In this document: one piece after another, positions 20,727-59,717 of the stretch
Layout of the letters: the number at the start of each line of letters is the position of its first letter
Position numbering within the stretch: position 1 is the first letter of the stretch
NCBI GenBank assembly: GCA_021791535.1
Contig: JAJYWI010000021.1
Coordinates: forward strand, 42,507-106,506
DNA length: 64,000 nt
Direction of reading: 5' to 3'
From: Microcaldota archaeon
GTDB taxonomy: Archaea; Micrarchaeota; Micrarchaeia; Micrarchaeales; Micrarchaeaceae
Translations under genes and position numbers: made by a program
Notes under the pieces: generated by a model
Databases searched by the model: none
What the model saw: only the letters and a program-made list of their open reading frames with translations
What the model was told of the DNA's origin: nothing

Positions 20727-20750
20727 CTTTTGCTTCTCATTATTCACGAT

Positions 20751-20864
20751 GGGCCCATAGCTCAGCTTGGATAGAGCGACAGCCTTCTAACAAACTTCTT
20801 AGAAAGAAGTTCGATCAAGAAAGAGGAAAGCTGAAGGTCGCGGGTTCAAATCCCGCTGGGCCCG
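20751..20864 (+). tRNA. tRNA-Arg(TCT) with canonical 37/38 intron (about 20790-20828)
   Basis: GGGCCCA...TGGGCCC acceptor; spliced loop CTTCTAA between CAGC/GCTG; T-arm CGCGGGTTCAAATCCCGC. Confidence 0.92.
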
Positions 20865-20933
20865 AGGAAATTTACCGTCGTAAAAGTCGTTCTGTTTAGC
20901 GCATGCTTTAAATAACTAAAATGGTGAATAACT

Positions 20934-21242
20934 ATGATGAAAGTTAATTCAAATGCCTTAGAAAAGCTGCATCCGCAGCTAGATTACGTCTATTATGGCG
21001 ACTGTTTAGAATATATGCGCCGTATGCCTAATTCTTGTGTAGATTTGATTATTACAGATCCTCCTTTCAATATTGGTAAAAAGTATGATTCGTATAAAGA
21101 CAATCTCAGGTTCGAAGAATATCTAAATTGGTGTTATCAATGGCTCGATGAAGCGGTCAGAATATTGAAACCAGAAGGCAGCTTAAGTCAAAGGAAGGTA
21201 TTTATATGTAGACAAGGTGAGCCTTGGTTAAGGGTGAAATGA
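20934..21242 (+). pseudogene. Truncated DNA methyltransferase (N6-adenine/N4-cytosine type) fragment
   Basis: VYYGDCLEYMRRMPNSCVDLIITDPPFNIGKKYDSY...LDEAVRILKPEGS, then homology appears to stop. Confidence 0.75.
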
Positions 21243-21541
21243 TGCGCGTAGATTTTAGGGTGGAACAAGCTCAAGGAGCTAAACTAATCGTACAAGGAGG
21301 AAGTAGTGTTGCTGGAGGTGAATTTTTAGGCGGGATTCTGCGAAGAGATGGTGAGGTTCTTGGAAGAATAGGCACAGTGTTTCGGCAGGGAGAAGATAGC
21401 AGAGTTACTGCGGCAGAGGTGTGGCCTGTAGATTTAGGCGAACGTCTAAAAAGCTTTATGAGACGTAGGAAGCCGGTCCCTTATGCTGGAGAGCCTACAT
21501 ATTATAGACGTTATCCAAGTTGGACTCAGATCATCGAATAA
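21239..21541 (+). CDS. Orphan hypothetical protein (element cargo)
   Basis: Intact ORF with upstream TATA-like TATTTATATG. Confidence 0.45.
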   Translation: MMRVDFRVEQAQGAKLIVQGGSSVAGGEFLGGILRRDGEVLGRIGTVFRQGEDSRVTAAEVWPVDLGERLKSFMRRRKPVPYAGEPTYYRRYPSWTQIIE

Positions 21542-21548
21542 ATAGGAG

Positions 21549-21571
21549 TTTCAAGACCGTTCTGCTTGCGT
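21549..21571 (+). repeat. Right-end element repeat, degenerate copy
   Basis: TTTCAAGACCGTTCTGCTTGCG identical to the start of the repeat at 58842. Confidence 0.7.
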
Positions 21572-50763: not shown

Positions 50764-50835
50764 GCCCGAATAGCTCAGTGGTAGAGCGACTGGCTGTTAA
50801 CCAGTAGGTCGCAGGTTCGATCCCTGCTTCGGGCG
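50764..50835 (+). tRNA. tRNA-Asn(GTT)
   Basis: GCCCGAA...TTCGGGC; anticodon loop CTGTTAA; T-arm CGCAGGTTCGATCCCTGC. Confidence 0.95.
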
Positions 50836-50923
50836 TAAGGGCGGGAGGTCCTATGCCTTTTTCTCAATCAGCCCACATATCCCAGGCACAGAACGTCTCA
50901 TCCCATAACCTGTTTCGGGCACC

Positions 50924-51271
50924 TTAATATCCGACATCTTTACTCCTTTTCTTATGTACGAATTCCCTTCTAAGTCTAAATGCAAGCCTTCCATCCGAAT
51001 GCCTCATCGGTACACCCAAAACTGTGCTGCAAGTAGGGCAAACGAGCTTTGGTGCGTCTTCAGGGACCTTTATCTTTGCATCCTTCTGTAACTTTGCTAG
51101 TTCTGGCGGTGCAGATATCCTGTTAAAGTAGCATCTTATGAGAGGACCAGGACCATCCTTTTGATACCAAAGAACCTTTGTATCGCCGCATTTCTTGCAG
51201 AAAACATCAAGCATAACGGCCTTGCCTCCTCTAACCCTCCTATATTGGTCATTTTTCATTTTGACCCTCAT
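50924..51271 (-). CDS. Hypothetical zinc-finger protein
   Basis: VFCKKCGDTKVLW...LVCPTCSTVLGVPM. Confidence 0.6.
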   Translation of the reverse strand: MRVKMKNDQYRRVRGGKAVMLDVFCKKCGDTKVLWYQKDGPGPLIRCYFNRISAPPELAKLQKDAKIKVPEDAPKLVCPTCSTVLGVPMRHSDGRLAFRLRREFVHKKRSKDVGY

Positions 51272-51346
51272 GGCTTCACCTCATTGACACTAAGTTTTGA
51301 GATGAATCAATTATACATCTTTCCTTACAGAAGGATTAGCAGAAAG

Positions 51347-51367
51347 CCCATGACTTTCAATCGTGGG
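51347..51367 (+). mobile_element. IS200/IS605-like right-end hairpin remnant
   Basis: AAAGCCCATGACTTTCAATCGTGGGATGAATG; stem CCCATGA/TCGTGGG; no tnpA/tnpB nearby. Confidence 0.4.
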
Positions 51368-51613
51368 ATGAATGCGGATTAGACAAACACATATGTATAC
51401 AAATATTGATAAACAATATACTATCAAAGGATTAAATGGACTATGAACACAACGGGACAAGTGTGGCGATGATAAACTACCACAGCCTTCCGCTCAGAAT
51501 ATAAGAGGTCAATATTGGTAGGGGATATAAAGAAAAGGATGGATGAAATTATGGAAACTGTGGCAAAGAGAAAATAATAAATATGTTTCTTCACATAATA
51601 TTTATGTGATTTA

Positions 51614-51856
51614 ATGCCGAATATTACCCTTGTAATTAGCAAGGAGCTTAAGATGGAAATGAAGAGGCACCCCTCTGTCAAATGGTCGAGCGCGGTAAGG
51701 AACGCCATAGAGCAGAAACTTGCGGATTTCAGAGAGGCTGAAAGTATAGCAAAAAGAAGCAAGTTCAGCTTGAAAGATTGGAAATCAATAAGCGAAAAGA
51801 TATCAAGGGATGCTGCAAGACACGCAAGGGCGCTTCTCCATGAAAGTAACGGTTGA
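51614..51856 (+). CDS. Putative VapB-like antitoxin
   Basis: MPNITLVISKELKMEMKRHPSVKWSSAVRNAIEQKL, RHH-like start; overlaps PIN ORF. Confidence 0.7.
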   Translation: MPNITLVISKELKMEMKRHPSVKWSSAVRNAIEQKLADFREAESIAKRSKFSLKDWKSISEKISRDAARHARALLHESNG

Positions 51857-52250
51857 CGCCAACGTACTGTTTGCGTGTCTGATAAAGGACTCAACAACCA
51901 GGAAGCTCTTCTTCAATCCCGCTCTGTCTCTCTTTGCACCAGAATTCATCGTAGAGGAACTGCTGCAGCACATCATAGAGATACGGGGAAAATCGGCCTT
52001 AGGGGAGGAAGAACTGCACCGCCTGATAGCAAAGGTTTTTGGACAGCTAACGCTTGTACCTGATAGGGCACTTAAACCATTCCTGCCAGCCGCAGCAAGC
52101 CTTGTTAAGGATCCAAAGGACTGGTTGTATCTTTCATGCGCGTTGCATGAAGACACTTTAATCTGGAGCAATGACAACGACTTCAGCGAACAAGAAAGAG
52201 TCAGGGTTGTTACTACAAAGGAGCTCATCGCTCTTGTAGGATTACTATAG
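51840..52250 (+). CDS. PIN-domain VapC-like toxin
   Basis: MKVTVDANVLFACLIKDSTTRKL...FIVEELLQH...DWLYLSCALHEDTLIWSNDNDF. Confidence 0.82.
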   Translation: MKVTVDANVLFACLIKDSTTRKLFFNPALSLFAPEFIVEELLQHIIEIRGKSALGEEELHRLIAKVFGQLTLVPDRALKPFLPAAASLVKDPKDWLYLSCALHEDTLIWSNDNDFSEQERVRVVTTKELIALVGLL

Positions 52251-52266
52251 ATCAGAGAAAGCGGCC

Positions 52267-52306
52267 GTTAACCAGTAGATTGCAGGTTCGATCCCTGCTT
52301 CGGACG
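52267..52306 (+). repeat. Duplicated tRNA-Asn 3' fragment (attR-like)
   Basis: 40 bp matching tRNA-Asn from anticodon to acceptor end with 3 substitutions. Confidence 0.85.
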
Positions 52307-52466
52307 CTCTCTTAAATAAATAGGCAGATAATTTATCAAGTTTTTATCTACCTAACTGATTACTTCAGTTGAAAATAACGATCCAAAGCCATTCGTCGAA
52401 TTTGCATTCAAACAGTATTATCTGCAGATAAAGGAATTTTTAAGCTAGAATTCCTTTGAGAGCATG

Positions 52467-52502
52467 GCACTATCTATGAAACGAGAAGGGCATGGATAGT
52501 GC
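52467..52502 (+). repeat. Left-end hairpin of element family, copy 1
   Basis: GCACTATCTATG-AAACGAGAAGGG-CATGGATAGTGC: 12-bp stem with one G.U. Confidence 0.85.
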
Positions 52503-52557
52503 GTAGATAGTAGAAGGCTTAGATAAGGCTTAATATTTTGATGGGCAAAGCCAGAGT

Positions 52558-53058
52558 ATGCCAAAGAAAAGCAAGCCTACGGAGCTCGATATGAAAAGTG
52601 AGGTGCGTAAGTTCCTTATTGTTGCTAACCTTAGAGGTTATGCTGCTGATAACACCAAAGCTTGGATAAAGGAGAAAGATGGTTCTACAACAATAGTCTA
52701 TGAGCGCGAAGACTGGAAGTACCACGATAACTTTTTCGGAGGTGAACCCTATGGCGGTAGAGAGGTCGTATTTTACAAAGGTGAACCAGTATGGATGATG
52801 GTTTACTATGGTGCTATAGTAGAAACAGAATCAGATGTTAAAGGACTCTACCAGTTTTTACAACGGGCTTTGAGAGCTGATCCGGAGAGTAACCCATACA
52901 GAGGGCCGAAGAGCTTCAAAGAAGGTGAGCTTGAATACAGAAATTCTTGGACCGGTGAAGTAGAAAGCTTTTCCGGCGAGGAGGGCATTTACAGAGCAGG
53001 AAAAAGAATATACTGGGCAAAGTATTTAGGCGGTTTTGTAGACCAAAGAGCGGAATAG
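52558..53058 (+). CDS. DUF5680-like protein
   Basis: FLIVANLRGYAADNTKAWIKEKDGSTTIVYEREDWKYHDNFFGGEPYGGREVVFYKGEPVWMMVYYG. Confidence 0.65.
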   Translation: MPKKSKPTELDMKSEVRKFLIVANLRGYAADNTKAWIKEKDGSTTIVYEREDWKYHDNFFGGEPYGGREVVFYKGEPVWMMVYYGAIVETESDVKGLYQFLQRALRADPESNPYRGPKSFKEGELEYRNSWTGEVESFSGEEGIYRAGKRIYWAKYLGGFVDQRAE

Positions 53059-53100
53059 CTTCAAGACCGCTCTGCTTAACGCAGTTATTGGTCTTTCAAC
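53059..53100 (+). repeat. Right-end repeat of element family, copy 2
   Basis: CTTCAAGACCGCTCTGCTTAACGCAGTTATTGGTCTTTCAAC; nested stems AAGACC/GGTCTT and CTGC/GCAG. Confidence 0.85.
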
Positions 53101-53132
53101 ATGTTCGACTTTCCTACAATCGCATCTGCGTT

Positions 53133-57488: not shown

Positions 57489-57528
57489 AGCTTTATATCC
57501 TTCACAGAGATATCATCACGTCAGCCAT

Positions 57529-57603
57529 GGGTCTGTAACTCAGTTTGGCTAGAGTGGCAGGCTTTTAACCTGTAAGTCGGGGGTTCAAATCCCCCCAGAC
57601 CCG
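57529..57603 (+). tRNA. tRNA-Lys(TTT)
   Basis: GGGTCTG...CAGACCC; loop CTTTTAA; T-arm GGGGGTTCAAATCCCCC. Confidence 0.95.
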
Positions 57604-57657
57604 AGTAAAATTTGCGACGACAAAATTTCTGAGCTAAAATTTCTTCGAGAGCAAGAC

Positions 57658-57689
57658 ACTATCTATGAAATGTGATGGGCATGGATAGT
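57658..57689 (+). repeat. Left-end hairpin of element family, copy 2
   Basis: ACTATCTATG-AAATGTGATGGG-CATGGATAGT: 10-bp stem. Confidence 0.85.
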
Positions 57690-57741
57690 AAGCGTATACG
57701 TAGGAATGCTTAAATATTTCCTATGCCGTATAAGATTACTG

Positions 57742-58296
57742 ATGGTGGGCAAGGAGAAGGAAGTTGCAGCACAGGACGGCAAAGCAACGACTTCTGAGAG
57801 GGCGTTTGGGCAAAGGGATTACGTTGCTCTATTCGGTAATGTTCTAAGGGCTACAAGCACCGGAAAGCACTACAAATACACCATCTTGCTACCAATAAGA
57901 GAATACTACGAGGGTGCAGAAGGCAATGCCAAAACAGTATTCACCAAGAAAGACGTAAAACAGCTTAGGCGGCTTTTACGTGGCGACTTTGGCGGTGTAA
58001 CATTCAGTTATTCAACTGGAGACTGGATAGATGACGATGGTAGAAACGTGGTTAATGACCACGCACAATACGAAGTTTCGGGCCAGAAAAACAGCATGGT
58101 GCGAAAGTATTTTGCAGAGCTAAAGGCAAGATTGTTATTGCATGCAGATGAAGTAAGAAACATACCGCAGAACGACATATACGTGCAAAGGTCAGCGGTC
58201 AATTTAGGAGATGATGTATTCGAAAAGCCGCCCCTGGAAGAGTTAAGCGGCAGGTTAACGAAACTAAAGGAAAAGCTTAATAATCTAAAAAGATGA
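57742..58296 (+). CDS. Orphan hypothetical protein (element cargo)
   Basis: MVGKEKEVAAQDGKATTSERAFGQRDYVALFG...; intact ORF. Confidence 0.65.
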   Translation: MVGKEKEVAAQDGKATTSERAFGQRDYVALFGNVLRATSTGKHYKYTILLPIREYYEGAEGNAKTVFTKKDVKQLRRLLRGDFGGVTFSYSTGDWIDDDGRNVVNDHAQYEVSGQKNSMVRKYFAELKARLLLHADEVRNIPQNDIYVQRSAVNLGDDVFEKPPLEELSGRLTKLKEKLNNLKR

Positions 58297-58595
58297 TATG
58301 GATGGCAGCGACAAATATTGAAGCGGAAGGTCGAAATATGTGGGTATCACAAGATAGATCGCTTGAAGTTCCCTATGCGTTACAGAGGGTTACGATTAGA
58401 TTCAAGAGCGAAAAGGCCGATCTTGAAGCCCAGGAGATACTAGGCAGAATGGGCAAAGTGCATTACTTTGAAGGCCCTGATGGCAAAGAAAGAGTAAGCA
58501 TAACCGAGGAGATGCTCAAAGTGCTTGAGGAGAAGCATATCCATTTCGAGCGCATTACAAGGCCTGCGCCCGTAAGTAACACCCTGAGAAAGTAA
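58293..58595 (+). CDS. Orphan hypothetical protein (element cargo)
   Basis: Intact ORF overlapping the previous stop by 4 nt. Confidence 0.6.
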   Translation: MIWMAATNIEAEGRNMWVSQDRSLEVPYALQRVTIRFKSEKADLEAQEILGRMGKVHYFEGPDGKERVSITEEMLKVLEEKHIHFERITRPAPVSNTLRK

Positions 58596-58841
58596 CTAGA
58601 TTGTATGTCACAAAAGAGATCCGACAGGGATGTATTCGTGGTATGTTGTGGTATGGAAGGAGCAAGAGCTATGGCTAGAATTGATACCGTTTTGATAGAC
58701 GCGCAAGGAACAATACTGTAAATAACAAGCAGTATAGTGAACTATTGAGGCTCGGAATACCCCGTGAGATTGTTAGCGCGTCGCCGTCTTATAAGCCACC
58801 TGCGGTGAAAACCCAAAGAAAGTAACAATCTAGTTATAAAG

Positions 58842-58882
58842 TTTCAAGACCGTTCTGCTTGCGCAGTTATTGGTCTTTCAAC
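58842..58882 (+). repeat. Right-end repeat of element family, copy 3
   Basis: TTTCAAGACCGTTCTGCTTGCGCAGTTATTGGTCTTTCAAC. Confidence 0.85.
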
Positions 58883-59038
58883 GTTCGATTTCTAACAAAA
58901 CCGCACCAGGTGGCTATATAAACTTCAAGTTCTACAATGCTCTTGGAAAATCTGGTTCGAAAATCGGAAAACGCTTTTGAGGAAATGATTGCATGCTGCA
59001 TCAAAAACCGGGTTCGAATTACGGCGACAAAAGGCTAG

Positions 59039-59092
59039 AGAGTGGCAGGCTTTTAACCTGTAAGTCGGGGGTTCAAATCCCCCCAGACCCGA
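59039..59092 (+). repeat. Duplicated tRNA-Lys 3' fragment (attR-like), exact
   Basis: GAGTGGCAGGCTTTTAACCTGTAAGTCGGGGGTTCAAATCCCCCCAGACCCGA identical to the tRNA-Lys 3' end. Confidence 0.92.
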
Positions 59093-59132: not shown

Positions 59133-59717
59133 GTGCCTGAAACGAAACCTTTCACTAACGCTGCTTCAAAGAAGATAGCCGAGTTAGACTGGATAGACGG
59201 AGGCAGCATCCACAGGCTAATTCCTACGCTTCGAGGCTCAGGGCAGGACTTTGGCTTCGGCGTTGAATGCCAGCTGCCAGGAGAGATATACTGGAAATGG
59301 ATACCGCTGCTTACAGGCTCGGAAGAGTTCAGGAAACGGATAGAGGATGAAATAAGAGCATCCATGTGCGACAATGGCCTTGATTGGCCGACGTACCTGA
59401 GGCTGAATTGGTCAAGGAACGGGCTGAACCTGGAGACCAACGGCGTGAACGGCTGCACGGTCTACGTGCTTAAATCGGAGTCAAGATACACGGAGCACAA
59501 CGTTGATAACCTTAGGCAGGCAATGGTGCTGCAATTCGCGCTGTCCATCTACACGAGAAGGATGATGCAATTTCTAGATTTCTTAGAGTCGCAGGGCACC
59601 GAAGGGTCAGTGCTGGAGGACAGCAAGCCGCTTGGAGAAGAGGACACAATAGAGGTAACAATCAGATTGGTCTCAACGAAGAAAAAAGGGCGCGCCCTGC
59701 GGAGATTGGATGTTTGA
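59133..59717 (+). CDS. Hypothetical protein downstream of attR-like repeat
   Basis: Intact ORF. Confidence 0.6.
   Translation: MPETKPFTNAASKKIAELDWIDGGSIHRLIPTLRGSGQDFGFGVECQLPGEIYWKWIPLLTGSEEFRKRIEDEIRASMCDNGLDWPTYLRLNWSRNGLNLETNGVNGCTVYVLKSESRYTEHNVDNLRQAMVLQFALSIYTRRMMQFLDFLESQGTEGSVLEDSKPLGEEDTIEVTIRLVSTKKKGRALRRLDV

Follow-up and report, generated by a model that had tools for sequence, protein, structure and literature searches.

A miniature tRNA-Lys element of Micrarchaeota, devoid of integrase and probably mobilised in trans

Introduction

The genomes of Micrarchaeota are very small, a life on other archaea is assumed for these organisms, and the way in which they gain genes is poorly known. 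Among bacteria, the cis-mobilisable elements (CIMEs) and other recombinase-less elements bordered by attL and attR carry cargo only and are presumed to use the recombinase of a related element. With respect to integrases, the gene of SSV1 is split upon integration, and the suicidal (SSV-type) enzymes have been tied to PF16795 and to a single origin in a review of 2021 (PMC8371274). In the Thaumarchaeota, according to the accessible part of a survey of their integrated elements, tRNA genes are the main target and the elements contain cargo together with restriction-modification genes (PMC6563490). A search of the literature on integrases and mobile elements of Micrarchaeota and DPANN, carried out largely without subscription papers, yielded nothing on the family of elements described below.

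The present report deals with a window of 64 kb (64,000 nucleotides, the whole stretch of DNA that was analysed), in which a tRNA-Lys(TTT) gene is followed by a short element. This Lys element is read, with a probability of roughly 0.75, as a non-autonomous, integrase-less member of a family of tRNA-targeting integrative elements of Micrarchaeota, moved in trans. The mobile-element family seems to be newly recognised, and its miniature members seem to spread across genera on the integrases of larger relatives. Like the CIMEs, these elements are att-flanked and recombinase-less; unlike them, they are archaeal, many are complete at 0.8-2.3 kb, and they display a conserved right-end module and recurrent pairs of cargo genes. 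The integrase-bearing members of the family resemble the SSV-type class I elements in their tRNA 3' target, their tyrosine recombinase and an integrase frame that spans attP (22 of 27), whereas their integrases belong to PF00589 and not to PF16795, and the window element, lacking an integrase, has no attP inside such a gene. The Micrarchaeota elements share with those of the Thaumarchaeota the tRNA targets, the cargo and the restriction-modification genes, integrase-less miniature forms being absent from the descriptions given in the accessible part of that survey (PMC6563490). A broader proposal, according to which a distinct miniature (0.8-2.3 kb), integrase-free lineage with a hairpin module uses borrowed integrases across genera, and the SSV-like layout evolved independently of PF16795, is put forward tentatively, as something possible rather than probable.

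Near-minimal mobile elements lodged in tRNA genes would represent a concrete route of gene gain for Micrarchaeota, and such a family, the att sites of which are short, would explain the variable islands found beside essential genes, in the present case those of the S13-S4-S11 ribosomal cluster. Should gene-splitting integrases have originated outside PF16795, the single-origin view of the 2021 review would need revision, and they would offer an independent case for the puzzle of the persistence of such integrases.

The tRNA-Lys Element and Its Borders

The Lys element is located inside a 106-kb contig of a draft genome (G000) of 741 kb distributed over 25 contigs (Table 1). Bases 24-77 of the tRNA-Lys are identical to attR at 54 of 54 positions (E 1.8e-26), the interval between the tRNA and attR measures about 1,434-1,435 bp, and the GC content of the element (43.4%) is distinct from that of the flanking genes (55-57%). 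The motif CGACAAAA occurs at only two places on the + strand of the window, 13 bp past the end of the tRNA-Lys and 6 bp ahead of attR, and no match to the integrase family was found inside the element. The sequence-only reading, which had described an AT-rich stretch lying between the tRNA-Lys and a perfect 54-bp duplicate of the 3' end of that gene, a short motif near both ends, two overlapping ORFs, a degraded coding remnant and the lack of a recombinase, is confirmed on all these points.

Table 1. Features of the window associated with the tRNA-targeted elements.
Feature	Position	Strand	Source
tRNA-Gln(CTG) with intron, bearing the third, truncated element	20750..20865	+	
Third element: DNA-methyltransferase-like fragment (so named from sequence resemblance alone), ORF ending at 21541, M2 cut to its first half (21547-21570)	20866..21570	+	
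tRNA-Asn(GTT), target of the second element group	50764..50835	+	ARAGORN
Element B1 at tRNA-Asn: PIN-domain gene 51846-52250 and small upstream ORF; no integrase	50836..52262	+	
Copy of tRNA-Asn 3' part, 35/37 identical	52267..52303	+	
Element B2: M1, DUF5680 gene 52558-53058, M2 53048-53130; right end lost	52307..53130	+	
tRNA-Lys(TTT), attL, gene kept whole	57528..57604	+	ARAGORN; Rfam tRNA, 70 bits
Left arm, inverted repeat AAAATTTG-CGACGA-CAAAATTT including CGACAAAA (57618-57625)	57607..57628	.	
Module M1: hairpin ACTATCTATG/CATGGATAGT and TATA-like CTTAAATATTT, preceding the first ORF	57624..57716	+	
ORF196, likely start ATG 57742	57706..58296	+	
ORF100, partner gene	58293..58595	+	
Pseudogene; the 87-aa gene is intact in congener G006, at tRNA-Gly (51% over last 35 aa)	58607..58825	+	
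Module M2 (right-end module): hairpin 58846-58877, then inverted repeat GTTCGATTT..AAAACCGCACC	58831..58911	+	R1, 99.5 bits (model built partly from this copy)
TATA-box-like CTATATAAA, right end	58914..58922	+	
Right arm: GGTTCGA motifs at 58954 and 59011, CGACAAAA at 59025	58954..59032	+	
attR, exact 54-bp copy of tRNA-Lys 3' part	59039..59092	+	sequence comparison

Bounded on one side by a whole tRNA and on the other by a direct repeat of the tRNA 3' part, the element has the organization of a tRNA-targeted insertion, and its att sites resemble those of relatives that encode a recombinase: the left arm is common to the integrase element of G008 and the M2 right end to that of G052. Such att sites, in an element deprived of recombinase, correspond to the definition of a non-autonomous or cis-mobilisable element. 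A near-identical left arm follows the tRNA-Lys in the congeners G004 and G005 and in G008, where the integrase gene comes next; since the left copy of CGACAAAA belongs to an arm that also stands beside the tRNA-Lys of other species, a target-site duplication left by a transposon is not favoured. Module M1 shares 81% identity with positions 52435-52525 of the tRNA-Asn element, and CTATATAAA is placed where the integrase-bearing relatives have their right-end TATA box. The right end was rejected as a usable integrase N-terminus, its frame being interrupted by a stop ahead of the core. No Rfam family was found for M2, and a weak tmRNA match (59007-59084) overlaps the tRNA copy.

A draft genome in 25 contigs might contain a tRNA duplicated artificially during assembly. 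The probability of such an artefact is practically negligible, since the element is located inside its 106-kb contig, independent genomes exhibit the same architecture, and two congeners possess a scar made of the same arm and a partial attR at the same tRNA.

The Same tRNA-Lys in Congeners

The gene order PadR - radical SAM - tRNA-Lys - island - S13 - S4 - S11 is largely conserved in the congeners, and only the island varies: it measures about 2.2 kb in the window genome and about 1.9 kb in G005, is reduced to 0.75 kb in G004, and extends to 7.5 kb in G008, where it includes an integrase. The scar in G004 and G005 consists of the tRNA, the inverted-repeat arm and a partial tRNA copy (attR), while integrase genes occur at this tRNA in G002, G003 and G008, directly behind the tRNA in the first two. 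The Lys element is absent from this tRNA in all five congeners examined, and the empty sites to which the sequence-only reading had looked were not found in a clean form among them, a scar or a different element being present instead. That reading had also inferred a recent integration from the perfect duplication. The 54/54 identity and the absence from the five congeners agree with it, but one gene of the element is broken and the nearest relative, located at a tRNA-Gly of a congener, shows 84% identity over only 269 bp; judged from these sequences, this copy may plausibly have been integrated recently.

In the tRNA-Lys island of G008, the integrase gene (1516-2353 of locus L009) seems to be broken by a frameshift close to a duplicated AAATCGGGTTCGAA motif; this GGTTCGA motif, which resembles the tRNA T-arm, is shared by the arms of many elements. 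In the window, a 194-aa orphan gene (59133-59717) lies between attR and S13; its sole match (29%) was found in the congener G002, so that it may be the remnant of an older insertion.

Cargo of the Lys Element

The genes of ORF196 (196 aa) and ORF100 (100 aa) overlap by 4 bp. Contrary to the description of the stretch as orphan sequence, the ORF196 family occurs in 8 of the 303 genomes of the phylum, with relatives in seven other genomes of the order, and in several species the ORF196 homologues are followed by a small gene related to ORF100. The pair is found without integrase at a tRNA-Leu of G070, which belongs to another family, in an element of about 1 kb with a 26-bp exact attR, and also by a tRNA-Lys (G102) and a tRNA-Gly (G006), no tRNA copy being found at either of these. 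Neither ORF196 nor ORF100 belongs to a Pfam or PADLOC family, and two scans of IMG/VR gave no relatives of them; a single weak PHROG match was obtained for ORF196 (E 0.009, function unknown). The predicted structure of ORF196 is fairly confident (pLDDT 79.5), with a beta-alpha-beta-beta-alpha-beta order, and a fold search returned weak matches to a phage SAM lyase (E 1.2e-3, TM-score 0.33-0.43) and to uncharacterised phage proteins (from E 2e-5). Owing to the weak and general nature of these matches, no function is claimed for ORF196. Depending on the element, the cargo of other members consists of VapBC, a weakly matched ATPase-like protein or DUF5680, and the 11-kb element of G052 contains a restriction-modification-like protein, judged by eye from its sequence.

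The Right-End Module M2 and the Integrase-Less Elements

The covariance model of M2, built from four copies, recognizes 30 places in 19 of the 165 genomes of the order, at many tRNAs, most of them no more than about 250 bp ahead of a tRNA 3' copy. Pairing in the hairpin is kept through double (compensatory) changes in 8 of 9 pairs, a result reached by none of 500 shuffles and by none of the slid controls; the structure was derived from the same alignment, which favours it, and most of the sequences were external to model building. As a guess, the hairpin, placed between the cargo and the right-end promoter, may end the cargo transcript.

Among the 12 M2 elements for which both the tRNA and attR were seen, the integrase is missing from 8, broken or truncated in 3, and intact in 1. 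The integrase-less elements are those of tRNA-Lys in G000 (1,435 bp) and G143 (771 bp), tRNA-Asn in G151 (799 bp) and G004 (5,132 bp, weak copy), tRNA-Asp in G008 (1,482 bp), G156 (2,283 bp) and G119 (1,045 bp), and tRNA-Arg in G151 (4,091 bp). Damaged integrases occur at tRNA-Lys(CTT) of G144 (fragment), tRNA-Gly of G143 (pseudogene) and tRNA-Asn of G133 (truncated gene), and the intact one belongs to the 11.1-kb element at tRNA-Arg of G052. Behind a single tRNA-Lys of G143, the 771-bp element stands in tandem with one that bears an integrase. As a marker of integrase-bearing elements M2 was rejected, since it did not rise above noise in the integrase loci examined. Paired adjacent copies of M2 (G026 C2:39988-40141, G142 C20:19464-19684) suggest stacked right ends.

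The Integrase Family of Micrarchaeota

A tyrosine recombinase of about 310 aa (PF00589) is encoded in 90 of the 165 genomes of the order. At 62 of the 80 named loci, a tRNA on the same strand, of twenty kinds by anticodon, lies at most 1.2 kb upstream of the integrase, and a copy of the tRNA 3' part was found downstream at 27 of the 80, 1.7-9 kb away; for the family in general, the distance to the closing copy is mostly 3-11 kb. The genomes are drafts and the boundaries of the elements come from sequence comparison only, so that elements near contig ends will have been missed and some att copies broken.

The att ends of these 27 integrase-bearing elements were joined in silico to read the frame across the core. 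The integrase frame runs through the core (attP) into the right end in 22 of them and reaches an ATG there in 19, typically about 84 nt ahead of the core end and about 80 nt past a TATA-like box. It is open for at least 78 nt upstream in 16 cases, against 1 and 3 for the other two frames, and the predicted N-termini are alike within the same tRNA, e.g., MKLENDAKSGQGRGAFNPATRVQIP at tRNA-Glu. A frame that crosses attP implies that integration would split the gene, as in SSV1. On these frames, most of the integrase-bearing relatives with both ends seen have attP within the integrase gene; their enzyme, however, stands outside the SSV family, PF16795 being detected in none of 11 family integrase proteins and in none of the 165 genomes. 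By profile, the nearest solved relatives are XerA-like. The suggestion to look for SSV-type or XerA-like integrases was accordingly borne out for the XerA kinship and, in part of the family, for the SSV-style layout, but not for the SSV protein family itself. A tree of the 80 integrases is compatible, with weak support, with a single change between split and classic layouts. Since the tRNA-Lys integrases of G002 and G003 group beside the classic layout, no split layout is attributed to the window element.

With respect to the mechanism, the Lys element would retain the parts recognised by the integrase, namely the tRNA 3' core, both arms with CGACAAAA and the inverted repeat, and M2, in addition to its two small cargo genes. 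The tyrosine recombinase of a larger relative present in the same cell would recombine the tRNA core with that of the element, so that the tRNA gene would remain complete on the left side and the 3' part thus displaced would mark the right end. The very end of contig C10 of the window genome contains at least the C-terminal half of an integrase of the same family, with HSLRH and the Tyr in VYIHT, cut by the contig end. This enzyme may act on the Lys element, and the element may be excised. Together with a 413-aa tyrosine recombinase of the genome, described below, it would make mobilisation in trans possible in this cell.

Movement between Genera

Element B2 (DUF5680, about 52468-53129) shares 90.4% DNA identity over 664 bp with the 799-bp integrase-less tRNA-Asn element of genus g21. 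Similarly, a stretch of 774 bp that begins at the tRNA shows 90.6% identity between the integrase-less VapBC element at tRNA-Asp of G008 and the corresponding element of another genus. For both genus pairs the ribosomal protein S4 is only 53-54% identical, and integrase-less forms have therefore crossed genera. The element proteins (90-95% identity, dN/dS 0.09-0.22) are, as these ratios indicate, under purifying selection. Both copies of each pair lack an integrase next to the tRNA, so that the integrase-less form most simply predates the transfer, the integrase being presumably supplied in trans. The shared elements could also descend from integrase-bearing ones in which the gene was lost ahead of the transfer, the spread then relying on another route, namely DNA uptake combined with homologous recombination at tRNA genes.

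If DNA were taken up and then exchanged by homologous recombination between tRNA genes, the spread would not involve site-specific recombination. The tRNA genes are conserved enough to seed such exchange, and the inter-genus Asn and Asp copies do reside at the same tRNA; however, a tRNA 3' copy with tRNA-specific arms is what site-specific recombination predicts, and right ends related to one another are found at tRNAs of many kinds, which makes this explanation highly improbable. It is unlikely, though less so, that the Lys element is a static relic, left by an integrase-bearing element that entered the tRNA-Lys, lost its integrase by deletion and now decays, with att sites persisting by chance. 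Decay is common here, as illustrated by the broken 87-aa gene, the frameshifted integrase at the tRNA-Lys of G008, the pseudogene at the tRNA-Gly of G143 and the scars of G004 and G005. Against a relic, both ends are complete and attR is perfect, ORF196 and its partner recur without integrase at other tRNAs and in other genera, and integrase-less relatives are common to different genera at 90% DNA identity. Site-specific integration of a satellite mobilised in trans, already proposed from the sequence, is thus supported and extended to a mostly integrase-less lineage, the members of which are shared between genera.

Other Elements in the Window and Genome

In addition to the Lys element, the window contains two further groups of such elements, at the tRNA-Asn (50764) and at the tRNA-Gln (20750). 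Two integrase-less elements are stacked behind the tRNA-Asn (window 50764-53130), one with the PIN-domain gene and the other with DUF5680 and M1/M2; by its layout, the PIN-domain gene with its small ORF is VapBC-like. Elsewhere in the genome, contig C4 (locus L048, 7798-9177) contains a tRNA-His followed by the 413-aa tyrosine recombinase, which belongs to a different group.
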